Of a DNA stretch of 64,000 bases, positions 3,225 to 54,506 are shown piece by piece. The position numbers and the translations under genes were made by a program. Origin of the DNA: Thermaurantimonas aggregans. GTDB taxonomy: Bacteria; Bacteroidota; Bacteroidia; Flavobacteriales; Schleiferiaceae. The stretch lies in contig NZ_BHZE01000003.1 of the NCBI RefSeq assembly GCF_003851885.1, positions 124,001 to 188,000 of the forward strand, given 5' to 3'. Position 1 is the stretch's first letter. Each line of letters starts with the position of its first letter. The notes under the pieces were generated by a model, which did not search any database, was not told where the DNA came from, and saw only the letters and a program-made list of their open reading frames with translations.

Positions 3225-3704
3225 CTATGCATTTTTTGAGGCTAATATTAGATAGATTATTAGCGTAATAAAAATCGAAGATATTTCTAATACAATTGCG
3301 AAAAAAGGCAAACTATCTTTTGCTTTTAAAACTGAGTAAAAAATATGAAAAAAAATAAGTAAAATAATCAACTTCAGAATTCGAAGCATTCTGACTGCTA
3401 AAGTGTATTGATAGCTGGCGTTATTTGAAGTTATAACTATTGGGTAATTAAAAATGTGAGGAAATTTTTTTAAAAATGTCAAAGAGAGGTAGATTAGTAT
3501 AGTAACTAATAAAAGTAACCATACTTCTCTTTTACTTCCAAATCTATCAGCTTTTCCACTTAGATCGTAATGAAGTGGAATTTCATCCGGCAAGTCTTGA
3601 TATCTACAAAAAAACAGACCAATGATACTTACTAACACGAGGAAAGACACAACCTCTAATAAATAATCAAGCCATTTGTAATGTAAACTAATTTTTGGCC
3701 TCAT
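3225..3704 (-). CDS. DUF1648-domain membrane protein
   Basis: A 159-residue integral membrane protein with about four hydrophobic segments. The first helix is followed by the DUF1648 signature YQDLPDEIPLHYDLSGKADRFGSK, i.e. the 'P..IP.H.....G..DRFGSK' loop found in SdpI-like immunity and membrane proteins (shown here in parts, DEIPLHYDLSGKADRFG). The SdpI C-terminal part is absent. It lies 85 bases downstream of arsC on the same strand and may be read through from the arsenic operon, but nothing in its sequence ties it to arsenic. Function unknown. Confidence 0.7.
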   Translation of the reverse strand: MRPKISLHYKWLDYLLEVVSFLVLVSIIGLFFCRYQDLPDEIPLHYDLSGKADRFGSKREVWLLLLVTILIYLSLTFLKKFPHIFNYPIVITSNNASYQYTLAVRMLRILKLIILLIFFHIFYSVLKAKDSLPFFAIVLEISSIFITLIIYLILASKNA

Positions 3705-26697: not shown

Positions 26698-26721
26698 AAG
26701 GCCTCTTCTGAGGCCTTTTTT
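26698..26721 (+). terminator. Terminator of the POT gene
   Basis: AAGGCCTC-TTCT-GAGGCCTT followed by TTTT. Eight-base perfect stem, four-base loop, 24 bases past the stop codon. Confidence 0.85.
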
Positions 26722-26760
26722 GTTTCGTTGTTTTTTAAGAGTTTTTTCTGTTTTTTTTTG

Positions 26761-26944
26761 GGGCGTGCCCCAGGCCGAGGCGTAAAAAGGCGCCTTGGCC
26801 TGGGTCGGGCTAGAGGCTCATATTCCCCTTGCAGGTGGGCACGGTACATCGGGCTGCGTTGTCTGCCCTTGCGGGCCAGCCAGCCTCGCCCTGTGTACCG
26901 TATGCCCACCTGCTTCGGCTCATATCCGCCACTATCCCTCACGC
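26761..26944 (+). repeat. GC-rich structured intergenic element, copy 1
   Basis: A 184-base GC-rich block in an AT-rich spacer, entered through a T9 run. It opens GGGCGTGCCCC and closes CTCACGC; GCGTG and CACGC can pair to close it. Inside: a hairpin 26771-26782 / 26791-26802 (CAGGCCGAGGCG with CGCCTTGGCCTG, one G-T), the box GGGTCGG, and a long inverted repeat 26831-26848 / 26894-26913 (GCAGGTGGGCACGGTACA, with a 2-base insertion in the second arm). It shares end boxes and the internal box with the element at 54344-54473. No credible protein is encoded. It could be a structured RNA or a palindromic repeat family. Confidence 0.7.
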
Positions 26945-26947
26945 GTT

Positions 26948-26973
26948 CAAGGCTTTCAGCCTTGTTTGTTTTT
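26948..26973 (+). terminator. Terminator-like hairpin at the end of element copy 1
   Basis: CAAGGCT-TTC-AGCCTTG followed by TTTGTTTTT, 3 bases after the element's CTCACGC box. It would end a transcript that contains the element. From here to 27089 the spacer is AT-rich with nothing else recognised. Confidence 0.6.
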
Positions 26974-54343: not shown

Positions 54344-54473
54344 GCGTGAGGTGCCTGGAGGGTGCCGGCGAAGCCGGCAGTGCGAAGCGAAGCGCAGCAC
54401 CGAGCGAACAGCGAGCCCGGAAGGGACCGACCCGAGCAGATGCCCTACAGGGCAACCTGCGAGGGACACGCCC
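54344..54473 (-). repeat. GC-rich structured intergenic element, copy 2
   Basis: Read on the minus strand it opens GGGCGTGTCCC (54473-54463) directly after a T-rich tract and closes CTCACGC (54350-54344), as does copy 1. Inside: hairpin GCAGGTTGCCC-TGTA-GGGCATCTGC, the box GGGTCGG, arginine-like GC-rich stems GTGCTGCGCTTCGCTTCGCAC and TGCCGGC-TTC-GCCGGCA. Stem sequences are unlike copy 1 but occupy the same places. It sits in the spacer downstream of recN (minus strand) and convergent to the symporter gene. A small hairpin (CTTGTA/TACAAG) follows at about 54301-54320. No credible protein is encoded. Confidence 0.7.
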
Positions 54474-54506
54474 AAATAAAAAATAAAAAAAAATTAATTC
54501 ATAAGA

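Follow-up and report, generated by a model that had tools for sequence, protein, structure and literature searches.

The GC-rich block at positions 26,761 to 26,944 of the window (the whole stretch of 64,000 nucleotides that was analysed, G000:C3:124001-188000, within the organism's own genome, G000, an assembly of 2.67 Mb in 57 contigs) is one copy of a real, covarying, multicopy and branched element, a conclusion that is well supported. The copies are likely to have spread as those of a mobile repeat that works by way of a folded single strand. The best reading, to which we would give about an even chance, is that of a non-coding, non-autonomous mobile repeat which depends on its fold and belongs to the Flavo-1 group. 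An earlier note on this DNA had left the choice between a structured RNA and a transposable palindromic family. The copies and the covariation on which that choice was based are borne out, and its mobile-repeat half is now favoured by the unrelated flanks of the copies, by an orientation which, outside the own genome, ignores both genes and replication, and by the indifference of Flavo-1 to transcription (PMC9723704).

The features of the two copies in the window are collected in Table 1. Copy 1 is recovered as the covariance-model match G000:C3:150761-150944 (E = 4.1e-5); its three boxes are exactly those which the earlier note gave, and the AT-rich spacers that the note described do lie on both sides. 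The hairpin put there at 12 bp is P2, which comes to 15 bp in the predicted fold, while the 18-bp inverted repeat is real and forms the distal stem of P3, in two runs with a 2-nt bulge. The base of P3 is GGGCTA/..TATCCC with conserved mismatches, and one T stands between the end of P3 and the closing of P1. As RNA, the region 26755-26950 has a minimum free energy of -113.1 kcal/mol against -78.6 kcal/mol for shuffled sequences (z = -8.25); the z values are -8.25 and -8.25 for either strand and -6.22 for the fold as DNA. A post-element hairpin, differing in sequence, is found at many copies in G000.

Table 1. Features of the two element copies, in window coordinates
Feature	Position	Strand	Remarks
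Element copy 1	26761..26944	+	184 bp, long-P3 subtype; boxes GGGCGTGCCCC ... GGGTCGGGC ... CCCTCACGC
P1, 5' strand	26763..26767	+	GCGTG; from fold and P1 complementarity across copies
P2 hairpin	26769..26804	+	CCCAGGCCGAGGCG...GGCCTGGG; from fold; sequence differs from copy to copy
Junction linker, P2 to P3	26805..26806	+	TC, conserved; part of GGGTCGG box
P3 arm	26807..26938	+	Counterpart of Rfam Flavo-1 (minus-strand sense)
P3 distal stem	26831-26848 / 26894-26913	+	11+7 bp
P1, 3' strand	26940..26944	+	CACGC; from fold and P1 complementarity across copies
T-rich 5' flank of copy 1	26742..26759	+	Target preference or degenerate leader
Small hairpin and T-run	26948..26964	+	Immediately 3' of copy 1
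Intrinsic-terminator-like hairpin of upstream gene	26698..26717	+	5' of copy 1
Element copy 2	54344..54473	-	130 bp, short-P3 subtype
Copy 2 ends	54473-54463; 54350-54344	-	5' GGGCGTGTCCC; 3' CTCACGC
Copy 2 P2 hairpin	54431..54465	-	
Copy 2 P3 arm	54350..54428	-	
Copy 2 T-rich 5' flank	54474..54495	-	Read on minus strand

When compared with one another, the copies are predicted to fold into a three-way junction of P1 (GCGTK/MACGC), P2 and P3. In a set of 25 copies the paired share of helix cells is 98.3% (85.0% after shuffling) and 82 cells are altered on both sides (25.4 after shuffling); the covariation score is 0.388, as against 0.134 after shuffling and at most 0.112 after sliding. The P3 base pairs vary among G-C, T-A and C-G, and the P3 stems hold several compensated types. 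The suggestion that GCGTG and CACGC of the two ends can pair stands as P1. Of the 202 copies compared between genomes, 201 are complementary there (shuffled mean 130, maximum 147), and the pairing exists in four versions, GCGTG/CACGC, GCGTT/AACGC, GCGCC/GGCGC and GCGCA/TGCGC. No complementarity was imposed at the variable positions in this count, and its loci were mostly fetched by a pattern restricted to K/M, the GCGCC and GCGCA versions coming from an independent DNA search; the sole exception is a chance-like match in an actinomycete. Covariation, one of the checks proposed for the copies, is strong.

The fold also has a polarity. Among isolated mismatches in P3, on the plus strand as drawn, 325 are pyrimidine-pyrimidine and 4 purine-purine, such that on the minus strand they are of the G.A type; the corresponding counts for P2 are 38 and 8. 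The polarity in P3 implies that what matters is a single strand with a defined polarity, either RNA or single-stranded DNA. It is not expected of a symmetric double-stranded site.

GGGCGTGYCCC with up to one mismatch occurs four times, where 0.59 occurrences are expected, and within G000 the pair of boxes occurs 27 times with none for the reversed control pattern. This recurrence is far from chance. A covariance model built from 25 copies finds 51 matches in the genome at E<=0.01, 34 of them at E<1e-5, so that the further copies which the earlier note wished to see are present by either search. Elements run to some 95-220 bp from GGGCGTK to MACGC and fall in G000 into two subtypes, with short P3 (as copy 2) and long P3 (as copy 1); long-subtype relatives of copy 1 occur in its own genome, in G001 of the same genus and in G014. 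In four loci (L002, L394, L395 and L421) P2 is enlarged by a tandem repeat with a unit of about 42 bp, like a minisatellite that grows within one arm.

Copy 2 (covariance-model match G000:C3:178344-178473, E = 5.9e-16) does repeat the three boxes, as had been noted, but their order agrees with that in copy 1 only when the reverse complement is read, since copy 2 lies on the minus strand. Both copies then have the common layout GGGCGTGYCCC, hairpin, GGGTCGG, arm, CTCACGC. On its own, copy 2 folds modestly better than its shuffles (z = -1.86), and the structural evidence for it is comparative.

The family recurs in Bacteroidota, Spirochaetes, Fibrobacter and phage contigs, and the relatives in other Bacteroidota that the earlier note suggested are confirmed. 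The spread is sporadic: the full pattern is present in three of 31 near-relative genomes (the own genome included; G014 has 33 copies) and in 12 genomes of a phylum-wide sample of 248, while the reversed control pattern has no match in either set. Carriers among the matches listed are Flavobacterium, Pedobacter, Chryseobacterium, Epilithonimonas, Aquimarina, Lutibacter, Lacihabitans, Segetibacter, Tannerellaceae and Bacteroidales, together with Treponema socranskii, other Treponema, Fibrobacter and a Myxococcales MAG. Viral contigs carry the element too. One with three copies (L214) looks Mu-like, an impression gained by eye from a transposase-like ORF of 612 aa rather than from a family search. 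A loose viral scan gave mostly chance matches and was excluded from the statistics; by BLAST, neither a phage copy compared with phages nor copy 1 compared with plasmids gave a match. Two viral contigs (L409 and L412) have an identical element, ending in CTCACGT and not CTCACGC, though they are 82% identical overall. In another element-bearing viral contig (L212), positions 3300-3379 score 33.0 bits with the Pistol ribozyme model, just below its gathering score of 34.5.

Flavo-1 RNA (Rfam RF01705) was described by Weinberg et al. in 2010 (PMC2864571) and has been listed as one of the most abundant families of bacterial sRNA (PMC9029176); in the literature found, no function is given for it. 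In copies from Flavobacteriaceae the RF01705 model matches the minus strand of the P3 arm, reaching 63.4 bits at L152 and 58.0 bits in the element at L050, against a gathering score of 42; these two are sister copies from other genomes that share the ends of the window copies. Other copies score about 28-40 bits (39.7 at L098), below gathering. Rfam searches of both window copies, at gathering and at E<=10, returned nothing meaningful and no Flavo-1 match, and RF01705 has no match across G000. In other words, by the Rfam criterion the window copies are not Flavo-1 members; the element shares an arm with Flavo-1. By inspection that arm is of the Flavo-1 type, with alternating short paired runs and minus-strand purine mismatches, and the taxa overlap. 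Long-subtype copies retain GGGCTATCCGCT...TATCCGCTNCTATCCC in P3, of which copy 1 keeps the base and a part only. Where the two differ is in extent, the RF01705 model spanning only the arm, and canonical high-scoring Flavo-1 sequences have the common arm but end in TAGCCCCGAT...GCGGGAAATAGCTCC (minus strand), not in GGGCGTK...MACGC. Searches of the literature by box sequences and by topic found no description of the full element.

Dispersal is most apparent in G014, where the most similar pairs are 93.5-99% identical inside the element and 20-43% identical, that is near chance, in their flanks. Over 191 copies the 5' flank has TTT at -3..-1, each position at about 80%, and A or G opens the 3' flank, with no conserved motif beyond these in the flank base composition; all G000 copies have a T-rich 5' flank. 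Some pairs in G000 and in the SKYG108 MAG share their 3' flank, and the 3' boundary is therefore not always exact and is sometimes extended. In that MAG (JANWVE contigs; L094, L111 and L178) a common stretch of about 110 bp lies 3' of the copies, contains ACCTTGT/ACAAGGT repeats and follows the element in both orientations. Relative to neighbouring genes, orientation in the other genomes is balanced (++27, --26, +-16, -+16), and 59 of 114 Flavo-1 matches in four complete genomes are concordant with replication when the origin is assumed to lie at the contig start (p = 0.78). In G000 the gene before the copy has the same direction as the copy in 23 of 29 cases, and placement there is thus not random, fitting insertion beside the T-runs of terminators. 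Among the genes flanking copies there is no recurrent partner gene, gene class or regulon. No clean empty site was found between near-identical genomes; for copy 1, the POT-purB gene order was not found in G001 or G014, and in related phage contigs every relative found carries the element.

Conservation in place is seen at a locus compared in 30 Flavobacterium species, which adjoins what we take, by eye, to be a crtZ-like gene. The element is kept there in about 22 of the 30, always in the same orientation and directly after the stop codon, between flanks of ~70-83% identity. Some species have decayed copies (L356, L362), and in others (L353, L355, L361) the two genes almost abut with no element. 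Between orthologues P2 and distal P3 have been replaced, and a P1 pair is G-C in some species and T-A in others. Such retention with turnover of the arms suggests host-level selection or copy-to-copy conversion. It is what speaks most strongly against an element that is purely selfish; conversion would be another explanation for it. A transposon copy inherited passively would be expected to decay faster than this one has. For four strict-pattern copies in G170, matching flanks point to orthologues in G246.

As a mobile repeat, the element would work as follows. An enzyme supplied in trans would recognise the fold, in which P1 joins the two ends and the junction linkers are held constant, would cut at the ends and would paste copies beside T-rich sites, which in G000 would often be those that follow the terminator of a gene. 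P2 and distal P3 would then be spacers that need only to stay paired, and Rfam Flavo-1 would be the P3 arm of such an element and not a free-standing sRNA gene.

The strand-polar mismatches and the in-place retention at the one Flavobacterium locus keep an RNA or a host function in consideration, and each of these we regard as unlikely, to a similar degree. If the minus strand were transcribed and acted as a structured non-coding RNA, the purine-purine mismatches of P3 would be tertiary motifs, in keeping with their polarity (325 against 4), with the strand that the Rfam model matches, with the covariation and with the conservation in place. Against such an RNA, a scan for the sigma-70 consensus around copy 1 found no promoter-like site, a terminator-like hairpin precedes the copy, and the flanks hold no common motif other than TTT and R. 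Moreover, gene orientation is random in other genomes, and in the transcriptome of F. psychrophilum Flavo-1 matches are sense, antisense or, in many cases, untranscribed, with no consistent strand, data which are inconsistent with a uniform RNA (PMC9723704). Alternatively the element could be useful to its host as DNA or as part of an mRNA, in the manner of REP/BIME sequences, acting on transcript ends, supercoiling or replication and spreading rarely. Its retention across Flavobacterium, the G170 copies with counterparts in G246 and the position of the G000 copies just downstream of genes all agree with this; a host function sits less well with the many sampled genomes, most of them, that do without the element, with the absence of a recurring gene class, with copies that avoid neither divergent nor convergent spacers, and with recent bursts of near-identical copies.

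Two further explanations name the mobilising enzyme, and on these the search for mobilisers, which covered Y1_Tnp and RVT_1 domains, bears directly. A REP-type repeat moved by a resident RAYT/TnpA_REP (Y1 HUH) transposase would have the conserved ends, fold and multicopy dispersal that are seen, and some carriers do possess Y1 genes; a Y1 gene of G222 stands beside other structured repeats. Yet the carriers G000 (where, with 57 contigs, a missing gene falls short of proof), G246, G230 and G270 have no Y1_Tnp, none of 20 Y1 loci in other genomes has the full element ends, the sole Y1 gene of G014 is flanked by a different palindrome, and Flavo-1 shows no replication-strand bias, unlike the studied IS200/IS605 relatives, which target the lagging-strand template (PMC6006769). 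The evidence nearly refutes this explanation, and we hold it to be very improbable. More improbable still is spread in the manner of a retroelement, by way of an RNA copy that, read on the minus strand, has an A-rich 3' tail. A minus-strand A-rich tract beside one end in G000, and the extra flank sometimes shared at the opposite end, might speak for this; RVT_1 is missing from G000, G014, G230 and G234. None of the loci examined had the form of an autonomous version, in which the ends would enclose a gene.

Some of these searches brought up other repeats. In G222 (L092) the RAYT-like Y1 gene has around it a structured repeat in three copies (at ~795, 1296 and 2076) with the hairpin GACCCC..GGGGTCGG, which resembles the atypical structures reported to flank the Bacteroidetes RAYT enzymes of subclass 2.6 (PMC6006769). 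The Y1 gene of G014 (L080) lies between pairs of CCAACGATTAAAATCGTTGG palindromes (1265-1330 and 1963-2028) that are unrelated to the element, a shortened copy of which is at ~2050-2105. In G131 there are 19 reverse-transcriptase domain matches, mostly in sets of equal score, which suggests a recent retroelement burst.

Returning to the fold-dependent mobile repeat, a broader and more tentative proposal, which we think possible but somewhat short of probable, is that Flavo-1 is not an sRNA family but one arm of mobile DNA elements that are branched and strand-polar and make up a large superfamily in Bacteroidota, Spirochaetes, Fibrobacter and phages. An enzyme that reads a single-stranded three-way junction would move them, and some lineages would have captured them in place for a host function. 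To see Flavo-1 as one arm within a longer element, whose ends are defined and whose copies are dispersed, offers a testable alternative to an sRNA, and the exact boundaries of the element are now given. If true, it would put many Bacteroidota sRNA annotations in question, and it points to a new mobilising activity.

Among known systems, a MITE of the DDE type has terminal inverted repeats with a target-site duplication. The ends of the element are complementary over only 5 bp, no direct duplication is visible by inspection, and the flanking TTT and R are not direct repeats. An integron attC site is a single hairpin with RYYYAAC...GTTRRRY ends. The element is like it in having conserved ends, a variable centre, a fold that counts for more than sequence and one strand of defined polarity, but its end order is opposite (GCGTT...AACGC), its fold is branched, and neither cassette arrays nor recurrent neighbouring genes are seen, such that it is not an attC. 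REPs, for their part, are single hairpins of 20-40 bp with an unpaired GTAG or CGTC foot (PMC3733652, PMC6006769), whereas the element is a three-way junction of 95-220 bp whose two ends, GGGCGTK and MACGC, are paired together; neither a GTAG/GTGG nor a CGTC foot with such a hairpin is present, so that membership among the RAYT/REP systems fails on this count as well as on that of a Y1 gene flanked by the repeats. The resemblance to REP/REPIN sequences and to GTAG- and CGTC-tagged palindromes is that of short, non-coding, folded, multicopy and extragenic repeats, and the CGTC REPs are likewise without a known transposase and are found in Bacteroidetes and Spirochaetes (PMC3733652, PMC6006769).
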